Shown here piece after piece: positions 12,677 to 63,474 of a stretch of DNA of 64,000 bases. The DNA is taken from NCBI GenBank assembly GCA_038373885.1, contig JAWZYV010013030.1:558001-622000 (forward strand), in the 5' to 3' direction. Position 1 is the stretch's first letter, and each line of letters opens with the position of its first letter. The position numbers and the translations under genes are program-made. This DNA comes from Cheiracanthium punctorium (taxonomy: Eukaryota > Arthropoda > Arachnida > Araneae > Cheiracanthiidae). The notes under the pieces are model-generated. The model was not told the DNA's origin. It worked only from the letters and a program-made list of their open reading frames with translations, and did not search any database.

Positions 12677-13115
12677 CCCTCTAACGCGCAGTGTTCGCGC
12701 TCTGGGAACACCCAACTCTGACGTTTTGACTGTTGCCAATCACGAAGAACAGATTTGATTTCTATAAAAATAGTTGCGGGTGACATAGCTCCACGAAAAT
12801 CCTTTACTTTTTAGCACGTCACTTCCCGTCAAAAAATGGCCACGATTACTTTTAACAGCACTGACATCTGCTGAAAAATGGAAGAATGCGAGAACAGCTG
12901 GATAGATTGCCCAATGCTGAAGAAAGGGCAGCCGTTGCCATCGTTCGACTTAACTACCAGCAAGATGGCGGACGATCGAAACGTTCATCACGTGCCACAG
13001 ATCTGGAGACCCTTTTTTGACGCAGCTGACTGTGCCGGCACAGCCAGCACAGTCAGCTGCGTCAGTTAATGAGAGCAGCACAGTTAATGAGTCCAAATTT
13101 TGTTGAAAGAATGTT
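12677..13115 (-). mobile_element. family P MITE, copy 1 (single-arm type)
   Basis: Reversed copy: it starts with the right-hand end (CCCTCTAACGCGCAGTG) after TTAA at 12673-12676. The common segments follow: GGGAACACC, the ATGGAAGAATGCGAGAACAG block, and one copy of the arm (ACTACCAGCAAGATGGCGG). Unlike most copies it has no inverted second arm. It continues into GACGCAGCTGACTGTGC, a short palindrome, and then CTCATTAACTG-type sequence (in complement) shared only with copy 3 at 28182. The far terminal repeat is eroded, so the right boundary is approximate. Confidence 0.75.
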
Positions 13116-13119
13116 GCCA

Positions 13120-13617
13120 AAATCAAGAGGTGAAACACAGGTGTTGCCAGAAATCGAATGTGTAATAGCAGAATTAAGATTATAAAAGTGTTGCCAGAAA
13201 CAGTAGTGTAAAATTATTTGACAGTGTTAAAATACAGGTATATTATTTAAATTAGCATAAGGCTATATTAATCAAATTAAAATTATAATTATTGAATAAT
13301 AATAAATTGATGGTATAGCCAATTAAATATTAATAAAATTATTGTATTTAAAACTCTAATGAATATATGTACTAGCTAATTTCATACATTTAGTTTATTC
13401 AGAAATTTATTCTAATATTGAGAGAGAATATTAAAAAAATAAAATTAGAATTAAAAATGTATAGTCACTGAATAAGAGCTCCCCCCCTTTTTTTTTCTCT
13501 TCCAAATATATTTATGCATGCATATACACATCCAGAGAGTTTTTTTTTTTTTTTTACTCTTTTTATAATAGTAAGAAAAGCTTCCTCCTCCCGACCCAGT
13601 CATCCAGTTACAGCCTT
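13120..13617. other. no gene seen
   Basis: AT-rich, with poly-C and poly-T runs near 13480-13555, leading into the (TA)n tract that received the Tc1 element. Confidence 0.4.
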
Positions 13618-13642
13618 AAATATATATATATATATATATATA
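13618..13642. repeat. (TA)n tract at the Tc1 left flank
   Basis: About 12 TA units. The last TA (13641-13642) is one side of the Tc1 target duplication. Confidence 0.9.
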
Positions 13643-13698
13643 CACTGCTGGCCACCCAAATTGCAACACCAAGAAAAACAAGAGATATCACAACAAAA

Positions 13699-13704
13699 TT
13701 TATT
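13699..13704 (-). terminator. AATAAA poly(A) signal of the Tc1 transposase
   Basis: AATAAA on the minus strand, about 75 bp past the stop codon at 13779 and inside the element, just before the terminal repeat. Confidence 0.55.
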
Positions 13705-13778
13705 GTGTAGATAACATGTTGACCAAGTAACAAATGATTAAATTTACAGCATTCTATGAAGCGTGGTTCCTGCCAAAA

Positions 13779-14819
13779 TCAGTACCCAGAGTAGCCGCCG
13801 TTGTTGGAGATCACAGCTGCCACACGCCTCGGCATTGATTCAAAGAGACTTTGAATGTGTTCTTGGGGTACAGCAGACCAAGCAGCTTCCACACGTTGCC
13901 AAAGTTGATCTGGTGTGACAGCTGGGGATGAACTCTGGGTCAGTCGTTGAGCAACCATGGACCACATGTTTTCTATCGGCGAAAGATCCGGAGAGCGCGC
14001 CGGCCAGGGAAGCAATTCAATCTGGTGATTGACGAAGAACCCTTGGACAATGCGTGCCACGTGTGGCCGTGCATTATCCTGCTGAAATATGGCTGTTGGC
14101 AAGCCCTGAAGGTAAGAAAGGACAACTGGCTCCAACACCTCGGAGATGTAGCGCTGGCTGGTTAAAGTACCGGCAATGCGTACTAGAGGAGTGCGAGAGA
14201 GATATCCGATACCGCCCCATACCATAATACCCGGTGCAGGACCAGTGTGACGGTGCATAATGCAGCTGTTCAGCATCCTCTCTCCACGGTGTCTCCAGAC
14301 TCGAATCCGACCGTCGTGGTGTTGCATACAGAAGCGTGACTCGTCAGTAAAGAGAATTTCATTCCATTCTGTCGTCCACATCCTTCTTTCATCGCACCAT
14401 TGGCGGCGGAGACGTCTGTGGTTCCGCGTCAGAGGTAGACAAAGCAACGGACGTCTTGCGGACAGACCATTCTGCTGTAAACGGCGTCGAATGGTACGCG
14501 CAGACACTGGATGATGCGTTACAGACTGAATCTGCTGTGATATGGTTCGTGATGTGACTGAGCGGTCCGTCACTGCCATGCGTACAATCTGCCTGTCATC
14601 ACGTGACGTGGTGCACTGAGGTCGATGCGGTCGATCACGTCTGTCCGTCGTACCCTCCTGCACCCAACGATCACATATCCGCATCACAGTTGTTTGGTTT
14701 CGTCCAATACGACGACCGATTTCCCTGAAAGATAACCCACAATCTCGGTATGCCACTATCCTTCCTCTGTCAAACTCGGATACTTGATCAAAAGATGATC
14801 GTTGTTTCCTACGAGGCAT
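13779..14819 (-). CDS. Tc1-family DD34E transposase, intact
   Basis: This is a 346-residue transposase, the usual length for Tc1-like enzymes, which cut and paste their own element at TA sites in the nucleus. Residues 8-52 form the first helix-turn-helix (FDRGRIVAYRDCGLSFREIG; TTVMRICDRW). A GRPR-like basic stretch (RDRPHRP, 61-67) is followed by a second HTH at about 75-118 (TSRTISQQI, VSARTIRRRL). The DDE catalytic domain has D159 in LFTDESRF, D248 in FQQDNARPHVA and E283 in SPIENMW. Exactly 34 residues separate the second D and the E. The domain also has the glycine-rich MVWGGIGY at 199-206 and SPDLSPIE. There is no internal stop or frameshift. The start is the first ATG after the leader and begins MPRRKQRSSF, a basic N-terminus typical of the family. 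The frames on the opposite strand here are shadows. Confidence 0.97.
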   Translation of the reverse strand: MPRRKQRSSFDQVSEFDRGRIVAYRDCGLSFREIGRRIGRNQTTVMRICDRWVQEGTTDRRDRPHRPQCTTSRDDRQIVRMAVTDRSVTSRTISQQIQSVTHHPVSARTIRRRLQQNGLSARRPLLCLPLTRNHRRLRRQWCDERRMWTTEWNEILFTDESRFCMQHHDGRIRVWRHRGERMLNSCIMHRHTGPAPGIMVWGGIGYLSRTPLVRIAGTLTSQRYISEVLEPVVLSYLQGLPTAIFQQDNARPHVARIVQGFFVNHQIELLPWPARSPDLSPIENMWSMVAQRLTQSSSPAVTPDQLWQRVEAAWSAVPQEHIQSLFESMPRRVAAVISNNGGYSGY

Positions 14820-14892
14820 AATTTATCGTTTTTTTGAAAAAAAAGCAAGAAAAACACAATTGCTGTACTTGAAACCGTCGAAATCTCCAAGC

Positions 14893-14900
14893 CTTAAATA
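14893..14900 (-). promoter_or_regulatory. TATA-like box upstream of the Tc1 transposase
   Basis: TATTTAAG on the minus strand, about 75 bp upstream of the ATG and within the element's leader. The spacing suits a core promoter driving the transposase. Inference from the motif only. Confidence 0.4.
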
Positions 14901-15065
14901 GCGCTTTGAGGTGGCGCCACAGGCGCGCTTGATGTGCGTCTGCGCTGAAATTCTAATCATTTGCATATCTCACCTCAGCTAATGCATGTTGTAAATTTCA
15001 TATTATTTGCATGCTTCCTTCAGGGTGTTGCATTTACGATGGCCAGCAGTGTATATATATATATA

Positions 15066-15471
15066 TGTCGTGTGTGAGTGGTTTAGGAACAGCACAAACG
15101 GCAACGTCCATCTGGATTGTTTTATTGAGGCATATTTACAAATTATATACAGAGGAGTTAGGAAATCTCTCGAAGTCAGGAAGAGCTGCTCTGCGGTAGA
15201 TGTCTCCTGGTTTTGTTTGTTAAGTTCACAGAGTGTCCACTAGGCGGCAGCTCTGTCTGTCCATCATCTAGTTGGTCTACAAAACCATAACAAAATCCTC
15301 ATTTGCTAAATTAGAAGACATGGGAGGCGCCTGCTGGCGAGACACCCTTATGATTGACAAGTTAGACCCTCCTAGGCAACAAGTATTGCACCATGTTTTG
15401 AAATTACAATTTATAGTCCAGATGCCCCCAAAGTGAAAGATGTTTTTAATTAAATGATCGCTTGTATGACA
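15066..15471 (-). mobile_element. LTR of a retrotransposon (solo-type), minus strand
   Basis: On the minus strand a ~406-bp unit begins TGTCATACAAGC and ends CACTCACACACGACA (TG...CA). It contains an AATAAA poly(A) signal in CTCAATAAAACAATCC, near 15119-15124. Just upstream of its start (15472-15527 on the plus strand) lies the purine-rich TTAAAAAGGGGGGATA, exactly where a polypurine tract sits before a 3' LTR. No gag or pol coding sequence is present. Both flanks are (TA)n, so the target duplication cannot be read securely (TATAT/ATATA). The superfamily is unknown. Confidence 0.65.
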
Positions 15472-15527
15472 TATCCCCCCTTTTTAAGCTTGTATGACAT
15501 ATCCCCCCTTTTTAAGCTTGTATGACA
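15472..15527 (-). repeat. 28-bp tandem repeat of polypurine tract + LTR start
   Basis: Two exact 28-bp units. Each is a purine-rich tract followed by TGTCATACAAGC when read on the minus strand, so the first 12 bases of the LTR occur three times in a row (ending at 15471, 15499 and 15527 on the plus strand). It looks like a template-switch or slippage product at the PPT/LTR junction. Confidence 0.85.
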
Positions 15528-15637
15528 TATATATATATATATCCCAAAACAAGATGAAAAATTACTTTAAACCGGACAACTTCAGGAAGGTACCGGCGTC
15601 CGTGTACTTTTTTTTCCTTCATATTTTTTCATAGTTG

Positions 15638-15639
<2 letters not shown>

Positions 15640-15685
<46 letters not shown>
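15640..15685. repeat. (AT)23 microsatellite
   Basis: About 23 perfect AT units. It forms part of a TA-rich zone that also received the Tc1 element and the LTR. Confidence 0.97.
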
Positions 15686-15687
<2 letters not shown>

Positions 15688-15689
15688 AT

Positions 15690-18573
15690 CCAAAAATAAA
15701 AAGAGCGAAATTCATTTGAAAGTATTATGAAAGGGCTGTGGTGGGGGCTACATATACCTGCCTTATGTGCAGTGCAGATACGCCCCCAATTGTTAGCGTT
15801 ATTTTGTTTCCGCTCCTAAATTCTTGTGGGAGAGATAGTTCTGGCACAGACAAAGGTGTGAAATTCTCACCACGTACAAAGAAAACACGAAGAATGATTT
15901 TTCATCGAAAATTGCTCGGTGGTGCGAAATTTAAAATCACGCCCCAGTTTTTATCCACTCACCCATAACAGGTACTGTCTGCGATTATGAAGCCCCCAGA
16001 ATGTATTTATATGACTAAAATCATTTTGGATTTTCTGGGGCGACTAGAAACGCCCATGGCGACCAAATTCGCCTACACGGCAAAAAGAAAAACAGTGGCT
16101 GATAAATAGCCAAAACTGGCATTGCTACGCCCCCCACAGAGGAAAAGGCTTTCACGGTCATCACCAGGGGTTCTAAAGGTATATGACAAAAAACATAGAT
16201 GAAGCAATATTACTCACTTATCGCACTTTGTGTAAGCTTGTTATACACCCAGGACATAAAGAATAAATAAAAATATGAAATATCAAAAGAATGAAAATTC
16301 ATCCATCGTTGCCTTAAGAGTTAAATAGGTGCTCAAGGCATTTTTACGTAATGAGGCCCAGAACATAGCATGTTTGCTTCACGCAGTGCACTACAATAGA
16401 AGTCTATTTATTCGATATTTAGACCCCCAACAGGTGATAAGTGATTACTGGAGGTTGAAATGCCGTCCTCTTCAGAGAGCAAAAGTCAATGAGACGCGAT
16501 GCATCTAAGTCTTGTTAATTTTTTCATTGTGAAATGAAGAGTTATGTGTGACAGTGTTTCATCTTAATAGCTTCATAGACATTTCATACTAAAAATAATT
16601 TTTCTCTCTCTCGGTGTAGCAAGTTCATACTAATAAGACAGCATTAGTTTGCGAATAGCTGCTTTTTAGTAGACATTATTTTATATGTCAGTGCCGATTT
16701 CTGACTATGGGCTGTTGTGCAGCAACCCCATCTTAGTTCATAAGCCCATAAATCCATGCTACAAGATATTGAATGAAACCAAAATGAATGCCTTTGTTAC
16801 AGGATTTTTGAATACTCAATTTATTGATTACGGTCACAACTTTGAGTCTAAGTTAATTATTTAACTTTTGATGATGCTTCTTCCAATTTGAAGCATTACT
16901 AAATGCGATCTAGAGATGTAATGACCTACTAGACTTCTGCACATTCTTTTATAGACATTGTATGTTCCCTTTTGTACCTACTGTCATTAAGAATTAGAAC
17001 AACCAACCTTTATATTTGGTTATACATGCCATTTGCGTTATTTATAATACATAACATTTGTGATCGTTGTCAAATTTCTACAAACATTCTATAGGAATGT
17101 GTAATCATTTTCGGATCCGTTTAACTGTAACAGAAATCCCCTGCAAGCTGGGTTGCCTCAAGTTTAATAAGAACTTGTATTTAAGTAAACGTATGTTTAT
17201 TGACTAATGGCAAATCTCATGTCTGTCTATATACTGATAGACTATTTTGTGCCTGTTTCAATATTAGACCATTTATTCAATAAGTATCACAAGTTCAGTT
17301 TTGTATGCGCATTGTATGTTCTCTGTATGCTGAAAGCATCGTTTTAAGAACTTTGTGTTAAGAGATCTAGCAAGATTTATCTGCAACAATCGAAAGTCTA
17401 TTCGAATCTTCATCATTTACAAATGGCTCGATCGCTGCTTAAGAGATGGTGACATTGTTATATGTCGCAAGCGGCTCTTATGAGATTACAGAGCTAATTA
17501 CCAACATCGGTATGTGTCTGCATTACATGCATAGAGAGAGAAAAAAGGTGAAAAACTTGATTCCATCCCACGATATCACAAGATACTCGTTTTGCTCATA
17601 ACTCGGTCATCCAATGCCAGCGGCTGGCCTTGGTATCATCTCTCTGAAGGAAAATACGCTTTGCCAGTAATTACTTTATAATGGTGTTACTTTTCTCGCT
17701 TTTCCATCTGATAAGCTAGCCTGTTTGAATGGATCCTTTTTCACTTGGTTACCTGCAGAAAGTATGCATAAGTACAGGGCGAAACCGGTTAGAAGGGGGG
17801 ATGCATTTTTTTTTCTGATTATCTGATTGGATAAAGGGGAGTTTAGGGAAATTTGCTGTCTCTAATTGGAGATATTCTAACATAGAAGATGAGATATCCG
17901 AAATCTGAAGCACACAATTGCTAGCAGTACTTTCATTAAGGGATTAAATGTTGTGTGTCCAGACGTAGATGTCAACGTAAATACTACTTTGTAAACTTTT
18001 ATGTGTCGAAATTTCATTTATGTGCAAATTCTGTTTCCTGTACTTTGGGTTTAACAGGTTTGCCTTATATCGCATCCATCTAATAAGAATCATTTAGTAC
18101 AGTATCTAAGAATCATTTAGTATAGTGTCAGCGCCGATACCTCATTTCTTTTAGGTATTGGTACTTTCACATTTTATAAGTATCGACAAAGTATCTGCTC
18201 CCAATATATCCGCTCGTTTTCTTCCGATACTTAGCTCTTCCCTTAAAACGTGTTTTAAATTTTTGTTAACAAAATTCACAAAAGAACTTAAGATTGGGGA
18301 TGATATCGATTTCAAAACTGAGAGCGGGGTTATTACCCTTGATATCGTTTGATATTTCAGAAGAGGAGAAAGGTTATGAAAAATTCATTTTTCGATAAAC
18401 ATGAATATAAACCCTTACTTAAATTGCTCATGCTTAAAGGCACGGTTACTTGCGCTCAGAGCCGAGCCGAAAAACAATATAGAGTAAGTCCAAACGGTGG
18501 AAAGGGCAGAATTTTTTTCTAAAGGACTTAAATCATTATCATTTTCTTAACAAAAATCGAAATGCCTTTCCAT
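15690..18573. other. no gene seen
   Basis: The first ~500 bp contain C-rich motifs such as GCTACGCCCCCCAC near 16119-16136, reminiscent of hAT MITE ends, but no pair of ends or duplication was found. A 23-bp unit (AAGAATCATTTAGTA...) occurs twice near 18086-18127. Otherwise AT-rich and unremarkable. Confidence 0.35.
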
Positions 18574-18576
18574 AAC

Positions 18577-18714
18577 GCAATCCAAAAGGGCAAGCAAAAT
18601 TTGCATGGCTGTCTTCTTTAAAACACATTATGTATTTTAATACATTTCCCTTAGTTTGGATACTATGACATAAAGTAAACATTTACGTAAATTTTACTTG
18701 CCCTTTTGGATAGC
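18577..18714. repeat. ~138-bp hairpin-forming inverted repeat
   Basis: The arm GCAATCCAAAAGGGCAAG(C)AAAAT at 18577-18600 and its complement ATTTTACTTGCCCTTTTGGAT at 18691-18711 match with a few mismatches. Weaker pairing continues inward. No flanking duplication was recognised. It could be a small foldback element or a transcribed hairpin. Confidence 0.65.
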
Positions 18715-18719
18715 GTGAC

Positions 18720-27707: not shown

Positions 27708-27838
27708 CCCTTTGAGGCGCAACCCTTTCCCAATGCTAAAAAAAGGGCAGCCGTTGCCATCGCTCGACTTAACTACCAGCAAGATGGCGGACGATCGAAA
27801 CGTTCATCGCGTGCCACAGATCTAGAGACCCTTTTTTG
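27708..27838 (+). mobile_element. family P MITE, copy 2 (left part only)
   Basis: After TTAA at 27704-27707 come CCCTTTGAGGCGCAACCC, CCAATGCT, GGGCAGCCGTTGCC and the full left arm to the GAGACCCTTTTTTG point. There the copy stops abruptly. The second arm and right end are absent, and a different dispersed repeat follows. It may be a 5' fragment cut at the hairpin. Confidence 0.8.
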
Positions 27839-27844: not shown

Positions 27845-28070
27845 ATCAGCCAAGACTTTTGAAAATCAGGAAACAAACTTTGTTCTGTAGCGAATGGTAC
27901 GATTAAAATAAGCGGTAACTTTCACTGCATTGTAACTTTCTTGAGTACTTCACAGTATTTCCACGTGGCAACAGCACCTAACAGAGCCAAAAACTGTCGG
28001 AGACAACTGCGAATGTATTTGGTAAACCTAATAAAAAATAATGAGTTCCATAACAGTTTTGAATAACTTG
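27845..28070. repeat. dispersed repeat (copies near 10184 and 33474)
   Basis: The first part repeats 10184-10345 (ACAAACTTTGTTCTGTAGCG, AACAGAGCC). The second part (CTGTCGGAGACAACTGCGAA, TAATGAGTTCCATAACAG, TTGAATAACTTGGAATATTT) repeats 33474-33570. Both this copy and the one at 33474 are followed by a family-P element. Confidence 0.75.
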
Positions 28071-28181
28071 GAATATTTCTGATCATTTTTGCATTCCGTT
28101 CATTTTTGCATTTTTCCGATCATTTTTGCATTTTAGCATTTTGCCTGATCATTTTTGCATTTTTGCGTGCACATTTTTGCA
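28071..28181. repeat. GATCATTTTTGCATTTT tandem repeat
   Basis: The core (C/G)ATCATTTTTGCATTTT and its truncations recur about five times, directly abutting the next family-P element. Confidence 0.8.
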
Positions 28182-28633
28182 CCCTTTGAGGCGCAACCCT
28201 TCCTCAACAAAATTTGGACTCATTAACTGTGCTGCTCTCATTAACTGACGCAGCTGACTGTGCTGGCTGTGCCAACACAGTCAGCTTCGTCAAAAAAGGG
28301 TCTCCAGATCTGTGGCACGTGATGAACGTTTCGATCGTCCGCCATCTTGCTGGTAGTTAAGTCGAACGATGGCAACGGCTGCCCTTTCTTCAGCATTGGG
28401 CAATCTATCCAGTTGTTCTCGCATTCTTCCATTTTTCAGCAGATGTTAGTGCTGTTAAAAATAATCGTGACCATTTTTTTACGGGAAAGTAAGTGCTAAA
28501 AAGTAAACGATTCTCGTGGACCTATGTCAATCGTAACTATTTTTATAGAAATCAAATCTATTCTTCGTGACTGGCAACAGTCAGAACGCCAGAGTTTGTT
28601 TTTTCCAGAGTGGGAACACTGCGCGTTAAAGGT
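28182..28633 (+). mobile_element. family P MITE, copy 3 (single-arm type)
   Basis: It begins CCCTTTGAGGCGCAACCC and ends GCGCGTTAAAGG with TTTAA following. Instead of a left arm it has CTCAACAAAATTTGG, two CATTAACTG blocks and a GACGCAGCTGACTGTGC palindrome, then the right arm and the common 3' segment. This matches copy 1 (12677) and defines a subfamily distinct from the two-arm copies. The left TTAA is not preserved (TGCA). Confidence 0.85.
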
Positions 28634-31215: not shown

Positions 31216-33473
31216 TTCATCGATTAAAATTTATTTAAATGCTTAATGATCTTAATCGTAAGTGTTCTGAAAGTCGAGTGGAGTCACTCCAGATTTTTTT
31301 TTTCTTGCGAACTATGCTGTAAATATTTCAAAACCTTCCTGAGCGGATTTCTTTTCTCACCTCACCCTAACTAACCCCTCTTTGGTTTTGGGACGAAAAA
31401 AAAAATTTTTTTAATCTGAAAATCAATAAATTCCATAAAAATTTACAAATTTACAATTACTACCAGAGTGAAAAAATCCACTGAATAAACATTTTGTACA
31501 AATTTTTTAAAATGGCGTTTTAGTTCGTCAAAGTTTTCAGCGAGTTTGCCAGTCAACAACAGTTGGAAACCGTAACTTCCATGCAAAAGGCGGTTCTTTC
31601 ACGCTTGATTATTCTCCCTGGTCGCTGAAATATAATCATTTGTTCATGTGTATTGTACTATGTTCCTGTACTGGGAATATTATGCAATTCCAATTAATGA
31701 ACAATACAACGTCAGTATCTGTTCATTTACTATGCTGCTCTATCGCTTCTTACTTGTAGAGCCGACAAAGCCAACATTGGGGACATTTGTCATGGGGGGG
31801 GGGGGGGCTCTTTCATATATACTCATTCAGTTTGCAACAGTTAGAAAACCTGGAACTACAAGTTTACTTAAGTTTCAGACTTTCTACTCTTGTGTGTGGG
31901 TGCTTGGAACTTTTTTGCAAAGTGCCAACCTTTGGCACCGTCAAACATGATTATATTCAGCAGATATTCATTATTTTGCTCAAAATGTTTTATAAAACTT
32001 TTTCTTTAGTATAGTTTAATATCTTTTCTTTGAGAATTATTTAAGCAGAGAAAGAGAGAGTAAATTTTTACTAGAAGTAAAACATTTCTACAAAATACAG
32101 TCGGAACGTTCCTTGATTTCGCCTCCCGACCTTTGACTAGGGTCCCAGACCCGGGGCAGCTTCCCCGCCTGACCCTGCCTTAGGCAGGCTTTGCTTACTT
32201 GAGACCCCAAAACCCAAATCCAATAACTCAAAATCTACCCTTTTTTTTAAAAAAAAACTTAAATTACATAGAACAATAATAACAAAAAAAAAGTTTGCTC
32301 TCACAGATAAACACGAAAATCAACTTTAAAATATAAGTTAGGATTTTTTTTTTAAAGAATTGTGCTTATAAGTGCCCATTTACTGGTCGGTTTACCGTAT
32401 ATATCACTCTTTCTTCCTTTTAAAACTTATAGAGAAAGGGATATAGATAGATATAATGAGCAATCATTCAACACATACAAATCCCACAACGTTTATCGGC
32501 AACACGATTTTCTTTAATATCTTTCCAGAAAAAAATCAAGAAGGGGAAAGTGGAAAGAAAAGCAAAAAAGAAAAAAAAAACCTTCTCGAAAAGTTCCAAA
32601 TAATCGGAAAACGCTCCTGCGATGAGTATTATAAGAGAAAACAATAATAATAAAAATAAAAAAAACCGTATAATAAAAGCATTCGAAACGATAAACTCGG
32701 ATAAAAATAAGAATAGCTGGTCACTAAAGTCCGTCAAAGCCACTCGAGCTTCTGCAGATTAATGATCGCCGATCGGAGAGAAAGTCATAGAAAAAAAATT
32801 GCTGCATTACAAACTATTTCACCTTATGAAAAGGTTTGTTAACCCTCAACTCACGTGTGATGAAAAAAAAAAAAAAGATCTTTTTATGCGTTGGGCCGCG
32901 TATTGGAAAAAGGTCCGAATTCCACCCCTTCTGACCCTCGGAAAAAAAGAAAAAAGGGAAAAAAAAAGAAATCGGAAACAAGCAAGAAACCTTGGCTTTG
33001 TCAGCTGCTCTTTCTTCTCTCGCTTTGTGCGAAAGTTGTCGTGTATCAACCCTGTCCCCATTCCGTCATAAGCAAGCCAGAGAACATCTCTTTTTTGCCT
33101 GGAGAGAGTGAAAAGTGGGCTCCTCTTCTTTTCGTCTTATTACGGTAATGTTCCGATAAAGTATCTGCCTCTTTCCACTCTGGCGTTGGAATTTTATCCG
33201 CTTATTTATTTTATTCCATCTTTTCTTTTATCTATTTCTCTCTCTTTCTTTCGATATTTTTCGTGTGTGGATATTTCTTTTTTTTTTATTATTACAAAGT
33301 AAAGAATGGCAACAATATCTGTAAACGCATCGCGAATTTTTTGGCAGGTCTCTATCCGCGTGATCGTGTCTTTTCTATTCTTTTGGCCATTGTATTATTT
33401 TTTTTCTTTCGTTCTTCAAATCTCTGCTTTAGTTTTCCTAGCGGATAATTCGGAAGTATATTTTGATGTAAAG
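31216..33473. other. no gene seen
   Basis: A poly-G run lies at about 31794-31807 and A/G-rich purine stretches at 32540-32990. Several overlapping frames (32468-32743, 32799-33148) arise from the purine/pyrimidine bias and have no domain. Confidence 0.35.
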
Positions 33474-33594
33474 AACTGTCGGAGACAACTGCGAATGTAT
33501 TTGCTGTATTTGGTAAACCTAATTAAAAAATAATGAGTTCCATAACAGTTTTGAATAACTTGGAATATTTGTGATCTTTTTTTGCATTCTTTAA
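33474..33594. repeat. dispersed repeat preceding family-P copy 4
   Basis: CTGTCGGAGACAACTGCGAA through TTGAATAACTTGGAATATTT, as at 27990-28070. It ends at the TTAA target (33591-33594). Confidence 0.8.
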
Positions 33595-34010
33595 GCCTTT
33601 GAGGCGCAACCTTTTCCCAATGCTGAAAAAAGGGCAGCCGTTGCCATCGCTCGACTTAACTACCAGCGAAAAGGAGTCTCAAGATCTGTGGCACGCGATG
33701 AACGTTTCGATCGTCCACCATCTTGCTGGTAGTTAAGTCGAGCGATGGCAACGGCTGCCCTTTTTTTCAGCATTGGGCAATCGATCCAGCTGTTCTCGCA
33801 TTCTTCCATCTTTCAGCAGATGTCAGTGCTGTTAAAAATAATCGTGACCATTTTTTTACGGGAAATGACGTGCTAAAAAGTAAAGGATTCTCGTGGAGCT
33901 ATGTTACCCTAAACTATTTTTATAGAAATCAAATCTATTCTTCGTGACTGGCAACAGTCAAAACGTCACAGTTTGGTGTTCCCAGAGCGGGCACACTGCG
34001 CGTTAAAGGG
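33595..34010 (+). mobile_element. family P MITE, copy 4 (left arm cut short)
   Basis: 416 bp between TTAA (33591-33594) and CTAA (34011-34014). The left arm stops right after ACTACCAGC and jumps to the right arm (GATCTGTGGCACGCGATG...). A short hairpin of AGCCGTTGCCATCGCTCGA-type arms remains. The 3' common segment is complete, ending GTGTTCCCAGAGCGGGCACAC and CGCGTTAAAGGG. Confidence 0.9.
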
Positions 34011-44198: not shown

Positions 44199-45139
44199 CA
44201 GGGTGTCCCATAACTATTGTTACAGAACTTAACTCTTTGAGACGCAACCCTTTCCCAATGCTGAAAAAAGGGCAGCCGTTGCGATCGCTCGACTTAACTA
44301 CCAGCAAAATGGCGGACGATCGAAACATTCATCGCGTGCCACAGATCTAGAGACAGTTTTTTGACTACAGCTCGCTGTGCGGCACAGCCAGCTGCGTCAA
44401 AAAAGAGTCTCTAGATCTGTGGCACGCGATGAATGTTTCGATCGTCCGCCATTTTGCTGGTATTTAAGTCGATCGATGGCAACGGCTGGACTTTTTTCAC
44501 CATTGGGCAATCTATCCAGCTGTTCTTCCATTTTTCAGCAGATGTCAGTGCTGTTAAAAATAATCGTGACATTTTTTTAGGGGAAATGACGTGCTAAAAA
44601 GTAAAGGATTCTCGTGGAGCTATGTCACCAACTATTTTTATAGAAATCAAATATATTCTTCGGAACTGGCAACAGTCAAAACGTCAGAGTTGGGTGTTCC
44701 CAGAGTGGGAACACTGCGCGTTAAAGGGTTAAGGGGAGGTAGGACACATAATAAGAAATAAGAATCACATAGCAATGTAGGGTCGGAAAGGTAATCTTCA
44801 TGTAACCGTTAATAATCACATTCTAACAAGTTCTGAAATAATAGTGAGCTTTCCGACCATTGTTATTTTAAAACGAATGTATCTTTCACAGAAAACACGT
44901 GACTAAAATTGATTGTTTAAAAATTCTGTCTCATTTCATGGGTGAAATTTTCGGAGACAAGCCCATTCTTTATGGAAATTGATTAAGAAATTAGAACACT
45001 TCAACACTTCTCTCAAAGTGATTATTAACAAGGAAATGAAAACTCCGTTTTTAACCCCACATTTGCTATGTAATTCTGATTCCTTAACATGTGCCCTGTC
45101 TCCCCTGAAATTTTGTATCAATAATTAGTGGACACCCTA
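44199..45139. mobile_element. CAGGGTGTCC-ended element hosting a family-P MITE
   Basis: The left end CAGGGTGTCCCATAACTATTG and the right end CAATAATTAGTGGACACCCTA are near-perfect inverted repeats. The element is split at a TTAA by family-P copy 5 (44233-44728). Without the insert it is about 441 bp. Two further partial relatives lie at 50205-50440 and 63475-63797. The terminal CAGGGTGTCC is shared with the mariner-like foldback at 4679, but the flanks are TT rather than TA. No coding sequence. Confidence 0.75.
44233..44728 (+). mobile_element. family P MITE, copy 5 (two long arms)
   Basis: 496 bp between TTAA at 44229-44232 and 44729-44732. Both long arms are present: CCAATGCTGAAAAAAGGGC inward to about 44378, and its complement outward to about 44516. 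The centre is CAGCTCGCTGTGC/GGCACAGCCAGCTG. The 3' segment ends GTGTTCCCAGAGTGGGAACAC and GCGCGTTAAAGGG. The relative at 50223 preserves the empty site (ACAAACTTTAAGGAGAGG), which proves TTAA duplication. Both arms share substitutions not found in other copies. Confidence 0.95.
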
Positions 45140-48904: not shown

Positions 48905-50204
48905 CTAGTGCAGTCAATCGGCCTTTATCTATAAACAAGCAAACCCTAAAAAAAAAAAAAAAAAAAAGAAAGAAAGAAAGAAAGAAAGATATTAACAATA
49001 AAAAGTTTTTATCTGACATTGCAAAGATATGTTTCAAGCTCGTAGAGGCACATGATTTATTATGAGTACCCATTAAATGTGCTTACATCTTATGCCGCAT
49101 AAGAAGAACGGGAAGGACGTGAATATTTTCATATTCCTGGACAAAGTATTGCACAAAACAAGCAACCTACCCTATTCTTGTTTACGTAAAAAAAATAACA
49201 ATAAACTGCACATTTATATACACTTCCTCGGGTCATTGCATTCACCCGGACGGGCACAGGCGGAAGATAACTTGGAGGACGCTGTTGACATGCTGGGAAA
49301 AGAAAAGAGAGATGCCATTTTTTTTTTCTCCTTACTTTTTCTCCAAGTCTTCTCGCTCAACTGATAGATCCATTTCTGAGACCGATTTTTCTCTCTCAAA
49401 CGAAGCGTGGTCGTTCTTTTTTTACGGTCAGTCGGGGATGTTTCTGCATCGTCTGCACATCCCTTTTGTTCCTGCCCCCCTCCCTCAAGTGCCAGGGAGA
49501 GATCCGAATCAAACAAGGGGAGAGTCGAGTTGAGTTGAGTTGCCTCGTTCGATACCCCCGCGCGAATTTCCTGGACACACTTTGATGACGCCTAAGGGAC
49601 AGATGGCTATCTGGGACACAATGTAAGAAAATATGTATTTTCGAGCGCCTTTTGCGAATGGAGATATGTAAAGTGGTTGTTCGCTGTTATTGATCGAGGC
49701 TCCCGATAATAGCGACGAATAACAGCTTTTTTTTTCCGGGGGTAACTGTTATTGCGAGACGTCTCGGGCTTGAGTCGCAGGTTGTAATTTCGTTTGTAGT
49801 ATGGGGCTGTTGCTATTGCCGTTGTATTAGTTTCCATGAAAAAGTGAGCAATTAAATTATGTTAATGTATTTAATGTATGTGCTCGGCTGGGTGAGCATG
49901 AAAACTTGCAGCATTTATCATAAAAGATTTAGCTTTAATATTCATGGCACATAAATTATATATTTTGTAAAAAAGTGTTTTACTATAATACTTCGTTGTG
50001 TTATAATATAATATATTTTTTATGATTGGCTCTTTAACAGCTTATACTAAGTATTTTACTGCTGTTTGGTACAATTAAAACAATAGTATACTTGATCAAC
50101 AACAAACTAGCCGATCATAGCGGAGGTTATAAAACTAAAACCTAAACCAGAGATAATACAAATAACGGACTTCGATAGCAGCACTTGTGATATCATACAA
50201 GGTG
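48905..50204. other. no gene called; GC-richer block 49210-49830
   Basis: After the A/AAAG microsatellite the sequence is unique. The GC-richer block carries several overlapping frames on both strands (49214-49516, 49285-49533, 49396-49578, 49607-49837), none with a known domain. GAGTC/GAGTT runs lie at about 49521-49541. Confidence 0.35.
48948..48988. repeat. poly-A and (GAAA)n microsatellite
   Basis: About 20 A followed by about five GAAA units. Confidence 0.95.
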
Positions 50205-50440
50205 TCCTATGATGATTGGGACAAACTTTAAGGAGAGGCAGGGCACATAATAAGGAGGATCACATAGCAATGTGGGGTCGAAAACGCCGTTTTCATTTAA
50301 CTGTTCACTAACAATGATCACTTTGGGGATCATGTTGAAGTGTTCGTCTGATTTCTTAACCAAGTTCCACAACCAATGGGCTTATCTACAAAAATTTCAC
50401 CCATGAAACGAGACCTCCTCTCGTTGAAAGCACCGGTATC
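50205..50440. repeat. empty-site relative of the 44199 element
   Basis: From AAGGTGTCCTATGATGATTG through CACATAGCAATGTGGGGTCG, then a jump to AAAATTTCACCCATGAAACG. It preserves the uninterrupted ACAAACTTTAAGGAGAGG where the relative at 44199 carries family-P copy 5. Confidence 0.8.
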
Positions 50441-50765: not shown

Positions 50766-51230
50766 CCCTTTAAGGCGCAGTGATCTCGCTTTGGGAACAC
50801 CAAACTCTGACGTTTTGACTGCTGCCAGTCACGAAGAATAGATTTGATTTCTATAAAAATAGTTGCGGGTGATACAGCTCCATAAGAATCCTTTACTTTT
50901 TAGCACGTCATTACCCGTAAAAAAATGGTCACGATTATTTTTAACAGAACTGACATCTGCTGAAAAATGGAAGAATGCGAAGAACAGCTGGAGAGATTTC
51001 CCAATGCTGAAAAAAGGGCAGCCGTTGCCTACCAGCAAGATAGCGGACGATCGAAACGTTCATCGCGTGCCACAGATCGAGAGACCCTTTTTTTTTGACG
51101 GCAGCTGGCTGTGCCGATCTGTGGCACGCAATGAACGTTTCGATCGTCCGCCATCTTACTGGTAGTTAAGTCGAGCGATGGCAATGGCTGCCCTTTTTTC
51201 AGCATTGGGAAAGGGTTGCGCCTCAAAGGG
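50766..51230 (-). mobile_element. family P MITE, copy 6
   Basis: 465 bp, reversed, between TTAA at 50762-50765 and 51231-51234. Right end (CCCTTTAAGGCGCAGTG) on the left, left end (GGTTGCGCCTCAAAGGG) on the right. Two arms with two separate losses: one arm lacks the CATCGCTCGACTTAACTA portion, and the sequence between GCTGGCTGTGCC and GATCTGTGGC is missing at the centre. Confidence 0.93.
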
Positions 51231-51234
51231 TTAA

Positions 51235-52053: not shown

Positions 52054-52411
52054 CCCTTTGAGGCGCAACCCTTTCCCAATGCTGAAAAAAGAGCAGCCGT
52101 TTGCCATCTCTCGACTTAACTACCAACAAGATGGCGAACGATCGAAACGTTCATCGCGTGCCACAGATCTAGAGAACCTTTTTTGACGACAGCTGGCTGC
52201 GCCCTTCCATTTTTCAGCAGATGCCAGTGCTGTTAAAAATAATCGTGACAATTTTTTTACGGGAAATGACGTGCTACAAAGTAAAGGATTCTCGTGGAGC
52301 TATGTCACCCGTAACTATTTTTATAGAAATCAAATCTGTTCGTCGTGACCGGCAACAGTCAAAACGTCAGAGTTTGGTGTTCCCAGAGCGGGAACACTGC
52401 GCGTTAAAGGA
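52054..52411 (+). mobile_element. family P MITE, copy 7 (right arm lost)
   Basis: 358 bp between TTAA at 52050-52053 and 52412-52415. The left arm is complete to GACGACAGCTGGCTG. It then joins directly to CTTCCATTTTTCAGCAGATG of the 3' segment, so the whole right arm is deleted. Confidence 0.93.
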
Positions 52412-52415
52412 TTAA

Positions 52416-55298: not shown

Positions 55299-55299
55299 G

Positions 55300-55708
55300 T
55301 CAATCCAGCCAGTTAGGTAACCAGACTTGCCGGCTATGGTGAGTACCGTTTTCCCCTCGAACTTTTGAAGTAATACTCTCTTTTGAACTAACACTTTGAA
55401 GTTAACTCATGGGTTGAATGTTTGGTGAATGCGGCCATTAAAGTCTTGGCGTAAAAGAAATAAACGTATTAACGTAAATGCTGGATGTGGTAAAATATTA
55501 TATCTCGCTAAAATTCATGCGTAATATACAAACCACATAAGCATAGAAAATCCACGACTTCACGAGATACATGAAGAAATTGTGTTAAATATAATTTATC
55601 TTTATGACCGTATGTTTAATATGTAAAAATTACTTAATCCTTACTATTAGTGTAATATGGTCTAGAAGTGTTCTTTTGCTTATTACAGTAGCGCTATTTA
55701 TACTGCTA
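55300..55708. other. no gene seen
   Basis: AT-rich sequence between the TGACAG cluster and the candidate exon. Nothing recognisable. Confidence 0.4.
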
Positions 55709-55914
55709 TTAAGATAAAGTTTTTTCAATCTTTTTAACAAGCTTACAGCTACGTAGAACAATTCCACACAAAGGATTTTCAAAGAACTCGATGAAGCTCG
55801 CCATCTTGAGTCGAAACTCAGTGGCTAACTCGCCAAAAACTGCCATACCCGTGCCGTACCCGACTTGAATCTGAATAGTCCCAAGACAGGCCACACACTC
55901 TTGACTCTCGTATA
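55709..55914 (-). CDS. candidate terminal exon, function unknown
   Basis: On the minus strand a pyrimidine-rich TTCTTTCTATTTACACAG splice acceptor (AG at 55915-55916) precedes an open segment of 67 codons ending in TAA at 55709-55711. The peptide contains YESQECVACLGT, then GYGTGMAVFGELATEF, then a basic tail (KLVKKIEKTLS). Codon use is less AT-biased than the surroundings. I recognise no family. The open frame also extends upstream without a break to 56128, so the splice site is only a suggestion. No upstream exon was found in the window. It may equally be a fragment of a repeat or retrocopy. Confidence 0.2.
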
Positions 55915-55916
55915 CT

Positions 55917-57923: not shown

Positions 57924-58110
57924 TCTACTAATATTAAAAATTCGAAAGTTTGCATGTTTGTCACTCCTTCACGTTGAAACGGGTGGACGGATTTGGAAGA
58001 ATGCAGCTTATACCCTGATTTAACGCACACGCCACTTTTTATCCCGAAAAAAAAAGATGATTGTTCCCGTGATGGTCGTAGATTTCTAAATTTTGTAGCA
58101 TATTCCAAAG
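57924..58110 (+). mobile_element. Helitron-like 5' region
   Basis: It starts TCTACTAATATTAAAAATTC, then GAAAGTTTGCATGTTTG, TCACTCCTTCACG, GGACGGATTTGG, GCTTATACCCTGATTTAAC, CACTTTTTATCCCG and TGTTCCCGTGATGG. This order (TC start, ACTAATATTA, GAAAGTTTG, CCGATTTGG-type, TATACCCTG, TTTTTATCCCG, GTTCCCG) is what I recall from widespread non-autonomous Helitron-like repeats of arthropods. The 3' end (hairpin plus CTRR) was not located, so the length is unknown. Confidence 0.55.
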
Positions 58111-59206
58111 CAGGACGTCAAATCGAATATCATGCTGGCAGAGTCCAAAAATAAATACGTAATTTTACTGTGATTGATTTAATGTGATTCAGTAATTAAT
58201 CAAACGTAAATTTAAAATGCCTAAACACAGCCTTATAAACAAATTTATATACATTTATGCGAAGCAAAACACATCAATTTATCAGTGATTGACATCAGTT
58301 GACAATTATGGCAGCTAGGTTGGCAGCTAAGTATATAGAACGTGGAATATATAAGGAATTGAAGATAAGATATCCGTAGAAATGATGTTGATATCACGAA
58401 TTCAGGGTTAATAACTGGCGAAAAATTAAATCACGCATTTATTGCCTAAAATCTCCAAAAAAAATTAAATTTATACAACTCAGCGAATCCTCATATCCCA
58501 TGACGGTATAGCAGCTGGTACCGTGACGTCACATTCGATGCCTACAGTTCCATTTGAGTGACAAGGTATGAAAACATAAACCTACAAAGTACGAATCACT
58601 TGCTAAGCGATGTTTGCACGAAGCCAAAGTGAAAAAGTATGCTAATAAGACAAATTTAGTTTTTTTTTTTTTTTTAAATATTTTTTGGTCACATCGGCGT
58701 AAAAGCATCCCATTCATTGCTCTGTGACCTCACGCGATAGTGCTTCCTTCGCCGTGGTGTCATACACGTTGCCAGTAATTTCTGAACGCGATTTATGCGT
58801 TGGCAAGCCATGCCTGACATTGGAAAATACCATATTAGGAACACGACTTGGACGCCGGAAGAGGTACCATGCTTCGCCACATCGCTAATGGAAGTGTTAA
58901 GAAGAGGTGAAAAACAATGTTAAAATATTAGAATGGGAGGAAAAAAAGGGGAGGGGTTAATGAGTATAATCTTCTACTATTTTAGAATTTTGATCTCTTG
59001 AAAGGAAGTAAAAGAAAACAGAGCTGGGTATTCTACGGTTGGTAATTCGCAAATAAAATTAAGATGCTGTAATAAATGGGTTTATTGATCTAAGAAGAGG
59101 GAAAAAAGGGAATGACAAGAGTTGGGCTCGTGTACAGTCCATTTTTAGCTTAATAAAGCGTGAATGTCATTATCACTTCACATCCATTTTTAACCTTCTG
59201 AGCGTC
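58111..59206. other. no gene seen; perfect CRE at 58523-58532
   Basis: GTGACGTCAC at 58523-58532 is a perfect CRE-type palindrome. Minus-strand frames at 58529-58717 and 58689-58880 have no known domain. The segment may still belong to the Helitron-like repeat. Confidence 0.35.
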
Positions 59207-59210
59207 TTAA

Positions 59211-59700
59211 CCCTTTGAGGCGCAACCCTTTCTCAATGCTGAAAAAAAGGGGCAGCCGTTGCCATCGCTCGACTTAACTACCAGCAAGATGGCGGACGAT
59301 CGAAACGTTCATCGCGTGCCACAGATATAGAGACCCTTTTTCGACGACAGCTGGCTGTGCCCGATGAACGTTTCGATCGTCCGTCATCTTGCTGGTAGCT
59401 AAGTCGAGCGATGACAAAGGCTGGCCCTTTTTTCAGCATTGGGCAATCTATCCAGCTGTTCTTTTATTCTTCCATTTTTCAGCAGATGTCAGTGCTGTTA
59501 AAAATAATCGTGACAATTTTTTTTTACGGGAAATGACGTGCTAAAAAGTAAAGGATTCTCGTGGAGCTATGTCACCCGCAACTATTTTTATAGAAATCAA
59601 ATCTATTATATTAATCTATTACATTCTATCTTCGTGACTGGTAACAGTCAAAACGTCAAAGTTTGGTGTTCACAGAGCGGGAACACTGCGCGTTAAAGGG
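59211..59700 (+). mobile_element. family P MITE, copy 8
   Basis: 490 bp between TTAA at 59207-59210 and 59701-59704. The left arm is complete. The right arm has lost its inner part, resuming at CCGATGAACGTTTCGATCG directly after GCTGGCTGTGC. The 3' segment is complete, with a small TTATATTAATCTATTAC-type insertion near 59608. Confidence 0.94.
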
Positions 59701-59704
59701 TTAA

Positions 59705-60074
59705 AACTTATAACATTGTTATTCAACTTTGTTATTCACCTTCAGCGATATCTTCACCTGCATCTAAATTTTATTTGATTAACTACAGATATATTAACAT
59801 TATATTTAAGGAAAATTTTACAAAATTTTCACATCTAATCAATATCTAATAAAAATTGAGAATAAAAAAATTGACGCCCGTTTATTTAAGTTCAGCAGCC
59901 AACTATCATATTACGAAATGTCGTTTAACTAACTCCAGACACCTTAACTCTCCTTCCTCACAAAAAGAGAAAGAAAGAAAAAGAAACCCATATCTTTTAA
60001 TTAAAAGTTATTGAGGTTTTTGAAAAGAAAATGATGATGGTGTTTAATTGAGTCACTAGACTATCTAACATGAT
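59705..60074. other. no gene seen
   Basis: AT-rich, nothing recognisable. Confidence 0.45.
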
Positions 60075-60422
60075 ACCCAAATTTCATTACATTCCTTTGA
60101 GCTGTTATTGAGCAATGTGAGAAAAATGAATTTACACAATTTTAACAAAATTTCAAAATCCATGAAATTTTTCGAAAAATTTTGATGACTGTAAGCAAAT
60201 TGATTACCTACCTTCATATCAAATTTGACTCCATTCGCTTTAGACATTCTTACGTGTTGCACGAATAAAAATTTACCTATTTTTGTATAGGTATTAAAAA
60301 ATTTCATAATTTTATTCAAAATTTCGAAACAAAATCTGCCTTTATATTTAGGTTTGAGTGACAGCAAATCATGTTACCCAACTTTCCTTTCATTTGCTTC
60401 GATCATTTTTACGTGTTACGCG
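60075..60422. repeat. degenerate tandem repeat, ~180-bp period
   Basis: On the minus strand the block (G/T)(C/G)(C/A)ACACGTAA(G/A)AATG...GC(G/A)AATG occurs at about 60420-60380 and again near 60262-60220. Each is followed by a TTTGCT(T/G)ACAGTCA- or TTTGCTGTCACTC-like segment and AAATTTTT/GAAATTTTG runs. The 100-codon minus-strand frame (60065-60367) is produced by the repeat. Confidence 0.5.
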
Positions 60423-60448
60423 AAAAAAAAAAAAAAAAAAAAAAAAAA
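60423..60448. repeat. poly-A tract
   Basis: About 26 A at the edge of the tandem repeat. Confidence 0.95.
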
Positions 60449-60808
60449 CAGTCACAGACGGAATGACAGTCTTTTTCTTTTACTTTTGAAGGATCGATGA
60501 GAGACTAGAAAATACAAAGATTTGCAGCTTTAATACGAGACAAGACAAACATTCTTATCATTACTATATAAGAAATTTACGAGACGATACAAAGCTTTGC
60601 AACTGTACTGCAAGACGAGACAGGTCTAGTTTTCGTCTTTCGTCTACTCCTTAGTCGTTTATGGTTTTCAGTTGTTTGAAACAGGTAGAAATCGCAAAAC
60701 TTTTGAATTACAAATATCGTACAGGCAAAAGTTGTATTTTATTCATGTTGGATGGTGATTCAGGAACAATTATGCAGCGATAGATTTTAAAAAATTAAAA
60801 ATAGACAC
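60449..60808. other. no gene seen
   Basis: Two GACGATACAAA/GACAAGACAAAC-like stretches. No feature defined. Confidence 0.4.
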
Positions 60809-61785
60809 GCAAGGCCATATTACCGGCATGACAAACTGGGCAACTGCAGATTTTAGAGCCCCATAAATCTTATATTTTACACTTTTATAATTTTAGAATA
60901 AAATAACACAGAAAATAAATCTGAAAAGCTATACTATTTTCCATTTATACAGAGTATTAATAATGAAAATAATTCAAATTTCAAAAACAAAGTCAAAGAT
61001 TGGCGCAACAGCCTCTCTGCGGGGCACAACCTGTGCTGCCCAACCGCGCCTTCGCGACCATGGGCTCTGGGGTGCGGATGCATATGACTCTGCCAGGTGG
61101 TCAGCTTGAAGCAAAACCCCCAGTGTTTGACCCCAAGCCTTTTGAACAAATTTTGAATTAGTTGTGCTACTAGAGTATCAGCAATAGGAATTAGTGGAAA
61201 TCTGATGATGATACATATTTTGGTAAACTTTCATGACTTAAATGTCATTAAATATTTTAAAAGCATTTAATCAGAGAGATCGTAAATACGATATGAAATG
61301 CTTAAATTGACAGAATGCTTTTTTTAATATTGAATATAGATATTATAGAAACGATTAATATTTTCTTTTGTTACAGTTTGATGCTCCGAAAATGGTTCCC
61401 CTTTCCTTAAAATTCAAATCAAATAAAATTGAAAATTTATATTGCTGACAAACAATGATTTTAGATCGGTGAAATAAAATAATAAGCTTTATAAATTTTC
61501 AGCTTAAGAAAGATAGTAAAATATATTAAAATCATTTTATAAATTAAATTTTATAGCATACAAAAGTTATTTAAATTCTGCGGTACTAATATAATTGCGC
61601 GTTATCAATTCCCTTCATACGATTCAAGTCTCTTCAAAAATAAAATAAAATATGAAATTACGACTGTATATTGCTTGTACTTATTTATAATATTTTAAAA
61701 ATAATTTAGTTAAAATAAGTCTTTTGAACTAAATCAAGTGAGAAAGGAATCTACATTTTAAAAATAATATTTGCCGTCTAATGGA
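60809..61785. repeat. duplicated block, copy 1 (interrupted)
   Basis: Same order of sequence as 61830-62305: CAAGGCCATATTACCGGC, GCCCCATAAATCTTATATTT, ATGATTTTAGAT(C)GGTGAAAT, ATTGCGCGTTATCAATTCCC, TTGCCGTCTAATGG. Here about 516 bp (60928-61443) intervene, containing CTTCGCGACCATGGGCTCTGG as at 47402-47568. It is an insertion in copy 1 or a loss in copy 2. Confidence 0.85.
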
Positions 61786-61829
61786 TATAATAGGAAATAA
61801 TAATGTATATAATAGAAAAGACACTATCA

Positions 61830-62305
61830 GCAAGGCCATATTACCGGCGTGGCAAACTGGGCAACTGCTCATGGCCCGCAGATTTTAGGGCCCCATAAAT
61901 CTTATATTTTACACTTTTATAATTTTAGAATGAAATAACAAAGAAAATAAATCTTATGCTAACAAAGAATGATTTTAGATAGGTGAAATAAAATGATAAG
62001 CTTTATAAATTTTCAGCTTAAGAAAGATAGTAACATATATTAAAATCATTATATAAATTAAATTTTATAGCATACAAAAGTTACTTAATTCTGCGGTACT
62101 AATATAATTGCGCGTTATCAATTCCCTTCATACGATTTAAGTCTCTTCAAAAATAAAATAAAATATGAAATTACGCCTGTATGTTGCTTGTACTTATTTA
62201 TAATATTTTAAAAATAATTTAGTTAAAAGAGAGAAAGAAGTCTTTTGAAATAAATCAAGTGAGAAAGGAATCTACATTTAAAAAATAATATTTGCCGTCT
62301 AATGG
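61830..62305. repeat. duplicated block, copy 2 (uninterrupted)
   Basis: 476 bp in direct orientation and nearly adjacent to copy 1, with a few small indels (extra CATGGCCCG near 61870, extra GAGAGAAAGA near 62230). The left end CAAGGCC..GGCAAACTGGGCAACTGC has the look of a DNA-transposon end. A related start lies near 46393. Confidence 0.85.
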
Positions 62306-63048
62306 AAAACAGCAAATATATGTTCGTGTGGTGATGCTAAATTAGATTCATAATAATACAAACATTCAAACACAATTCAAACAGAGCAAAGAAAAATCTA
62401 AATAAGGATAATCACAAGAGTTTTTAAGTAAATACACTAATATGAATAAGAATTTTTAGATTCGGTTAAATTGACCATTGTACAAGCAGAAAATTGGCAT
62501 TGTGTGGGTATTTTGAAGGAAGCGTTTCTCATCCCTCTGTTGCATACAATGGTCACAGTTTACACCTAACTAAATTAGTTGAGTAAACATCTACTCTTTC
62601 ACAAACTGCTCTCACAGGTTTTTTGTTTTCAATTTTCATTTTTTCCCGAAGATTTCCAACAGCAATATGTATAAAATGACCCTTAAACACACTGCTTTAA
62701 ACAGTAAATATGCAGAGAGTTAAAAATTTTTGAAAAATTATAGCTATTATGTGACCGGCAGATGGCGTGCATATTCCAACTGACCGATTTGAAAAAAAAA
62801 CAAAATGATAATAAAATTCATTTTGCAGTCCCACGATGCAATTCAACGAAACTTGTTTTAAGAAAATAATAAGTTTTTAGATATCAAGCCTGTTGTATGC
62901 CTTGTCACCCTTGCCATTCGGAATTTGCTATATTCAGGCTAATTTGAAAAAGAAAAAAGGAAAATCATTCAGGATGATCAAAAATGTCTTGGGAAGTTTT
63001 AGTGTTTGTTCGTTTGTGTTATGGCAAGCCTACATGAAGGGCATCGAC
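62306..63048. other. no gene seen
   Basis: AT-rich. No recognisable feature. Confidence 0.45.
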
Positions 63049-63052
63049 TTAA

Positions 63053-63474
63053 CCCTTTGAGGCGCAACCCTTTCCCAATGCTAAAAAAAGGGCAGTCGTT
63101 GCCATCGCTCGACTTAACTACCAGCTGCGTCAAAAAAGGGTCTCTAGAACTGTGGCACGCGATGAACATTTCGATTGTCCGCCATCTTGCTGGTAATTAA
63201 GTCGAGCGATGGCAACGGCTGCCCTTTCTTCGACACTGGGCAATCTGTCCAGCTATTCTCGCATTCTTCCATTCTACAGCAGATGTCAGTACCGTTAAAA
63301 AATAATCGTGACCATTTTTTGACGGGAAATGACGTTCTCAAAAGTAAAGGATTATCGTGGAGCTATGTCACCCTCAACTATTTTTATAGAAATCAAATCT
63401 ATTCTTGGTGACTGATAACAGTCAAAAATTCAGAGTTTGGTGTGCCCAGAGCGGGAACACTGCGCGTTAAAGGG
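63053..63474 (+). mobile_element. family P MITE, copy 9 (left arm cut short)
   Basis: 422 bp between TTAA at 63049-63052 and 63475-63478. The left arm stops after ACTACCAGC and continues TGCGTCAAAAAAGGGTCTCT of the right arm. A loop-side deletion with AGC(TG) microhomology explains this. The 3' segment is complete. Confidence 0.94.

Follow-up and report, generated by a model that had tools for sequence, protein, structure and literature searches.

The nine repeats found between positions 12,677 and 63,474 of a 64,000-nucleotide stretch of the Cheiracanthium punctorium genome (contig JAWZYV010013030.1, positions 558,001 to 622,000; the whole stretch is termed the window) are, with high confidence, copies of one non-autonomous family of piggyBac-type miniature inverted-repeat transposable elements (MITEs). 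The original prediction had assigned the nine to a single family, and all nine of their start coordinates were borne out. The elements are short and non-coding, carry terminal repeats and occur in high copy number, in accordance with the properties of MITEs. In total, 28,320 exact matches to a 22-base pattern, composed of TTAA and the first 18 bases of the left end, were detected in 2.53 Gb, while the reversed control gave none. The terminal repeats are imperfect and 14 bp in length, CCCTTTGAGGCGCA on the left and CCCTTTAACGCGCA on the right (both read inward), and conform to the definition of piggyBac ends that was used, namely repeats of 12–19 bp starting with CC(C/T)T, as given in the available text of PMC2872659.

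The proposal that a piggyBac-type transposase acts on these elements in trans was likewise upheld at the level of sequence, and is suggested by the CCCTTT ends, the TTAA target, a palindrome centred 25 bp from the right tip, element-free counterparts of insertion sites and uninterrupted frames of the PF13843 type in the same genome. The transposase encoded by an autonomous partner would bind the right end via its terminal bases, and a dimer of its cysteine-rich domain (CRD) would bind the palindrome centred at bp 25. The enzyme would then pair the right end with the left, excise the element and insert it at another TTAA.

Window copies and the internal palindrome

Both ends are retained in seven of the nine window copies (358–496 bp), and the remaining two are incomplete (Table 1). 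The shared left and right ends proposed originally were confirmed overall, except that copies 12677 and 50766 (copies are named by their first position) lie on the reverse strand, such that the end first described as left is in these two the right one. TTAA had been reported on both sides wherever the flanks were readable. It is exact in five copies (44233, 50766, 52054, 59211 and 63053), present at the sole surviving end of 12677 and 27708, and imperfect around 28182 and 33595. Among the eight copies that possess the right module described below, pairwise divergence of this module is 4.2–14.5% (mean, 9.5%), and the window copies are therefore old and separate. A second repeat of ∼110 bp, located at 27989–28096 and 33470–33589 (88% identical), stands before 28182 and 33595, two copies of unlike type, and may form a composite unit with them or be there by coincidence.

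The general layout of the element comprises CCCTTTGAGGCGCA, ∼7 more left-specific bases, a long palindrome and a right module of ∼215 bp. Read inward from its tip, the right module consists of the right repeat followed by GTGTTCCC-GCTCT-GGGAACAC at bp 15–35. In the fullest copies the palindrome extends from element position 22 to about 275–335; its left arm starts immediately after a left-end stub of ∼21 bp and is an inverted copy of the sequence that adjoins the right module. Inverted arms of ∼125 bp, originally ascribed to most copies, are extensive in 33595, 44233, 50766 and 59211 (142, 253, 196 and 195 aligned palindrome positions, respectively), while the others are partial, one-armed, variant or fragmentary. 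Thus, the palindrome of 63053 is confined to two arms of 39 positions, the right arm is missing from 52054, and the left interior of 12677 and 28182 is a different one, containing a 47-bp palindrome. Some right ends (in loci L003, L009 and others) bear a left-type terminal repeat, TGCGCCTCAAAGGG, which suggests exchange between the two ends.

The same variation was observed elsewhere in the genome. Eight loci (L041–L048) were fetched around the exact left ends listed first for one contig (C1); seven of the elements have a right end and measure 348–510 bp, with palindromes trimmed to varying extents and nearly full in L042; shortening is therefore common and not peculiar to the window. The short form represented by 63053 is also widespread: the other 39 full-length places (of 40 candidates scored) are 87–91% identical to it, in a search that used 63053 as the query and hence favours this form. 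Copies outside the window range from 267 to 609 bp.

The long palindrome most likely goes back to one event in a founder element, in which part of the interior was duplicated as an inverted copy beside the left-end stub; template switching while a transposition gap was being repaired is one example of how this could happen. The founder palindrome would subsequently have been amplified and repeatedly shortened by deletions. A single founding event would account for the prevalence of the same arm behind left ends: when the arm was excluded at six bases, the pattern matched 100 places, beside the 28,320 recorded for the left end as such, although it would let through no more than ∼18% of arbitrary other continuations.

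Another origin of the palindrome, as an exon captured from a host gene or a transposase and kept for a function such as the formation of double-stranded RNA, is considered quite improbable in comparison with accidental formation through faulty repair. In several copies a 44-aa frame within the arm is indeed open, and the copies fold into long hairpins (as computed with no shuffle comparison). However, the 44-aa peptide, which was padded with X to 351 letters in order that longer proteins would qualify, matched none of 10 candidate proteins of restricted length at E≤10, and the 150 best genomic matches, out of 132,802 first-look candidates, fall within frames no longer than 110 aa. The number of candidates stems from the interior-peptide search, in which a full palindrome can count twice, and is not a copy count. 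Moreover, the arms are missing from many copies, and among the 100 left ends that do not enter the arm the commonest continuations occur just four times. A coding interior, with the 44-aa frame as part of a transposase or host exon, was thus rejected, having neither relatives nor long frames.

The right-end palindrome and the transposase

The right end carries a 21-bp subterminal palindrome, which occupies bp 15–35 and is centred at bp 25.0; it is degraded in copy 28182. This position can be compared with that in T. ni piggyBac, in which a CRD dimer sits on bp 17–33, with its centre at bp 25 (PMC7351741, available text). Since the palindrome is centred at this point on the right end and none is found there on the left, the right end of the family would, by analogy, be the counterpart of the piggyBac end that bears the CRD-dimer site near its tip.

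The genome was further searched for transposase genes, specifically those of the piggyBac type (PF13843). Of 3,515 candidates, 116 places were scored; most of them lack an internal stop, and the open frames are about 450–690 aa in length. Twenty-six of the 116, chosen across the range of frame lengths, were each represented by one upstream tile of ∼450 bases. In 13 of these tiles a total of 14 TTAACC(C/T) sites were detected (one tile, L052, has two, one of which is probably no end). The best palindrome (score ≥5) is centred at bp 24–26 in 9 of the 14 sites, as opposed to 39 of 1,066 consecutive 60-mers taken from the window, while the sequence of the palindrome differs among these upstream ends. 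Two of the nine (L059 and L070) look related, leaving about eight that are independent. The binomial chance of 9 in 14 is ∼2e-10, a value to be taken with caution because attention was drawn to the position by these same data ahead of the count, and because some of the shuffles described below reach the scores of three of the nine; the bp-25 position is nevertheless expected independently, owing to the location of the T. ni CRD-dimer site (PMC7351741).

The original prediction suggested a search for an autonomous element with the same ends. Uninterrupted PF13843 frames are present, but none of the 26 tiles contains the ends of this family; the tiles lie on the upstream side alone, at 26 of the 116 places scored, and 13 of the tiles show no TTAACC(C/T) site, so that gene ends may fall outside the tiles. 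Pattern searches for family ends joined to another interior returned the 100 left-end matches mentioned above and 113 right-end matches, many of the latter being one place read on both strands. No recurrent partner interior was observed in either set, and a partner can have been missed, since a random interior passes the first pattern in ∼18% of cases and the second in ∼32%. Many of the 100 odd left continuations look like private deletions or small indels: their last seven bases occur in the fetched copies in 63 cases, versus 33% for random 7-mers. The possibility that the variant left interior is the genuine 3' portion of the partner was also considered and rejected, as this interior was found in full only at 12677 and 28182 (40 of 60 candidates scored); the other matches start at query position 65, within a part common to the palindrome centre of ordinary copies.

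The lack of family ends in the transposase tiles is one of several observations that weigh against the proposed transposase. At the left end, neither a palindrome at bp 25 nor a recognisable second one is seen. Three of the nine tile palindromes are unremarkable by themselves, their scores being reached by 28, 60 and 62 of 300 shuffles. Covariation within the family palindrome is weak, with 319 of 352 cells paired versus a shuffle mean of 315.1 (reached in 83 of 2,000 shuffles), and three double changes versus 0.87 (reached in 71 of 2,000). Selective conservation of the palindrome is not supported, its value being 0.949 as compared with 0.952–0.964 in the rest of the right module. Finally, copy 28182 lacks a TTAA on its left side.

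An alternative would be a MITE moved by a transposase of the Kolobok type or of another TTAA-targeting type, such as Sola3, which also uses a TTAA target. The bp-25 palindrome, however, has the same geometry as in the piggyBac ends of this genome. In addition, although Kolobok elements likewise duplicate TTAA, the ends of the present family begin with CCC and not with the AG/AGGRR of Kolobok termini (PMC6004289, available text). Mobilization by such an enzyme is therefore very unlikely, and a piggyBac-type transposase remains the preferred source of activity.

Target sites, copy number and spread

The 18-base left end occurs at 31,545 exact places, with none for the reversed control, and TTAA precedes 89.8% of them (the 28,320 given above); a genome-wide lack of TTAA, which would have counted against the original prediction, was not observed. 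Within the fetched loci, TTAA was found before 75 of 84 ends in L001–L028, where ends were accepted with up to two mismatches, and before 36 of 40 in L029–L048 (L001, L029 and L030 are pieces of the window itself). Among 36 copies outside the window, mostly selected for their likeness to 63053, TTAA is present on both sides in 30 and on at least one side in all, in keeping with duplication of the target on insertion.

Element-free counterparts of insertion sites were sought by joining the flanks of 49 end pairs with exact duplications and matching the products to a few hundred kb of sequence. Junction-spanning matches were obtained for two, the copy in locus L036 and window copy 44233, and no spanning match to the remaining 47 was found within the sequence searched. 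The L036 copy sits in a repeat, whose element-free relatives are located in the window (44834–45088) and in L042 and L012. At the junction the window relative has a single TTAA (45025–45028), while the other two read TTAC. Copy 44233 is located at the margin of a repeat, where ∼40 bp of its left flank could be aligned; the element-free relatives at L042:2050-2284 and L012:8392-8630 read TTTAAG, and one further relative in L012 reads GATAAG. The relatives are 72–79% identical to the target and are therefore diverged copies of it, not alleles. A dispersed repeat distinct from the family (window 44729–45136 and 50201–50414; also L012, L042 and L036) hosts or adjoins two of the family's insertions.

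The 31,545 exact left ends represent a lower bound on the number of copies. The exact 22-base pattern is present in five of the nine window copies, which leads to a rough guess of ∼50,000 for the total. The high copy density noted originally was confirmed, with five exact patterns in the window versus ∼0.7 expected from the genome mean; density figures rest on pattern counts. Such density is not unique to the window, since at least 28 places are listed at 30–490 kb of contig C15. The spread is uneven: among the matches listed, 28 fall within ∼460 kb on C15 and 29 within ∼2.9 Mb on C1.

This unevenness, together with the left interior that 12677 and 28182 share, would fit segmental or tandem duplication in place of transposition. 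Such an account deserves next to no credence: at the level of the whole family it is contradicted by differing flanks with TTAA at most sites and by the two sites with element-free relatives. The 12677/28182 pair itself (93.2% identical over 429 bp, 15 kb apart and in opposite orientation) is no closer than several other copies are to 12677 (their identities reach 94.5%, over shorter stretches), and possibly reflects an old local hop.

Table 1. Positions of family copies, end palindromes, an element-free site and short derivatives (window coordinates unless a contig is named)
Feature	Position	Strand	Flanks or remarks
Copy with right end kept, left end lost and variant left interior; family sequence ends at 13106	12677..13106	-	TTAA 12673-12676
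131-bp left-end fragment (terminal repeat and much of left palindrome arm)	27708..27838	+	TTAA 27704-27707
Both-ended copy with variant left interior (in full elsewhere only in 12677)	28182..28633	+	TGCA left; TTAA 28634-28637
Copy with shortened palindrome	33595..34010	+	TTAA left, CTAA right
Copy retaining an almost complete palindrome (element bp 22-275)	44233..44728	+	TTAA 44229-44232, 44729-44732
Palindromic copy	50766..51230	-	TTAA 50762-50765, 51231-51234
Copy without right palindrome arm	52054..52411	+	TTAA 52050-52053, 52412-52415
Palindromic copy with insertion within right module	59211..59700	+	TTAA 59207-59210, 59701-59704
Copy with partial palindrome (query for genome search)	63053..63474	+	TTAA 63049-63052, 63475-63478
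21-bp right-end palindrome, example copy	63440..63460	+	bp 15-35 from tip; one arm mismatch
Right-end palindrome, other copies	44694-44714, 59666-59686, 52377-52397, 33976-33996, 50780-50800, 12691-12711
Repeat copy with element-free TTAA site matching L036 insertion	44834..45088	+	74% over 264 aligned positions
49-bp sequences between TTAA sites, examples	C1182:125721-125777, C2584:704362-704418, C7283:877438-877494, C8898:68698-68754

Short derivatives, other window features and comparison with known systems

A set of 49-bp sequences was also detected, in which the 21-bp palindrome is enclosed by two right terminal repeats. In its 57-base form, from TTAA to TTAA, this arrangement occurs at 14 places on 14 different contigs at up to three mismatches (four are exact). 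Among the 10 of these for which the letters are shown, eight have TTAA on both sides and nine are right-right or nearly so, unlike the left-right parent. The exact 33-base core was found at 29 places; eight of these belong to the 14, while 21 fail to fit the 57-base form and therefore differ in their outer parts. Two altered loops were each observed twice: TTTCT (C7372:799236 and C8481:249610) and GCTCA (C7460:681148 and C10665:15225).

None of the fetched loci contains a 49-bp sequence. The end pairs in one set of fetched loci are left-right or left-left, with no right-right pair among 38, and the single right-right pair in the second set (L039) is probably a nested arrangement. Right-right pairs being nearly absent, simple deletion from an ordinary copy does not directly give the 49-bp form. 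The 49-bp places may be re-inserted fold-back products or rare in-place deletions from a right-right parent, and it is unlikely that the derivative is itself mobile. If it were, it would be a cut-and-paste element of very small size, in which a single transposase-dimer site serves both ends, requiring either two copies paired in trans or a transposase able to handle DNA far below its persistence length, and the lower size limit for such transposition would be pushed down.

Two other features were observed in the window. An uninterrupted frame of 347 aa for a Tc1-type transposase (13779–14822, reverse strand) is 99% identical to one protein on a short contig, and its nearest named relatives are mainly from spiders, with the addition of a pseudoscorpion. 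An inverted repeat of 720 bp (4665–6470; arms 96% identical, ∼370 bp between them) overlaps a DUF4817 helix-turn-helix frame (5322–5825), whose nearest named relatives are again mainly from spiders. In both cases, the lists of relatives are dominated by the transposable-element proteins of one annotated spider.

No described family with such ends had been named in the original prediction, and no match to three end sequences of the family was found in the literature searched, a search that did not extend to repeat databases. As far as could be checked, the family is new, while its kind is well known. A large chelicerate-like genome thereby gains a piggyBac-type MITE family of very high copy number, and the many deletion derivatives of one long palindrome, present in copies whose orientation is known, could be used to study the loss of palindromes in an animal genome. 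Moreover, the genome provides an internal test of end architecture, in that differing piggyBac families keep differing palindromes ∼25 bp from the tip, as a CRD-dimer site predicts.

The following comparisons refer to the available text of the papers cited. T2-MITE/Kolobok of Xenopus resembles the present family in being a MITE with a TTAA target, and differs in its AG/AGGRR ends versus CCC (PMC6004289). T. ni piggyBac and piggyBat share with it the TTAA target and asymmetric ends, yet are autonomous and have palindromes of different sequence (PMC7351741, PMC11707139). In T. ni, the CRD-dimer palindrome at bp 17–33 of one end occupies a similar place to that observed here, whereas the same 19-bp repeat is present at another spacing on the other end, where none was seen on the left end of this family (PMC7351741). 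The CCCTTT motif is itself known from beetle piggyBac ends (PMC12732532). Among the systems found, the nearest described analogues by end sequence and target are CMITE families I–VI of Acropora corals, which are similarly non-coding, have TTAA and repeats of 13–14 bp, are linked to piggyBac and, for the most part, end in CCCTTT (PMC2872659). The CMITEs belong to another host phylum, are ∼100 bp in length with no long internal palindrome described in that text, and were estimated at ∼1,600 copies in A. millepora, as against the 28,320 TTAA-preceded exact left ends counted here (PMC2872659). Coral piggyBac-type ends include CCCTTTAACGCCC (AmiPB2) and CCCTTTAAGCCCTA (CMITE II) (PMC2872659); the former, the left end of AmiPB2, has a sequence close to that of the family's right end.

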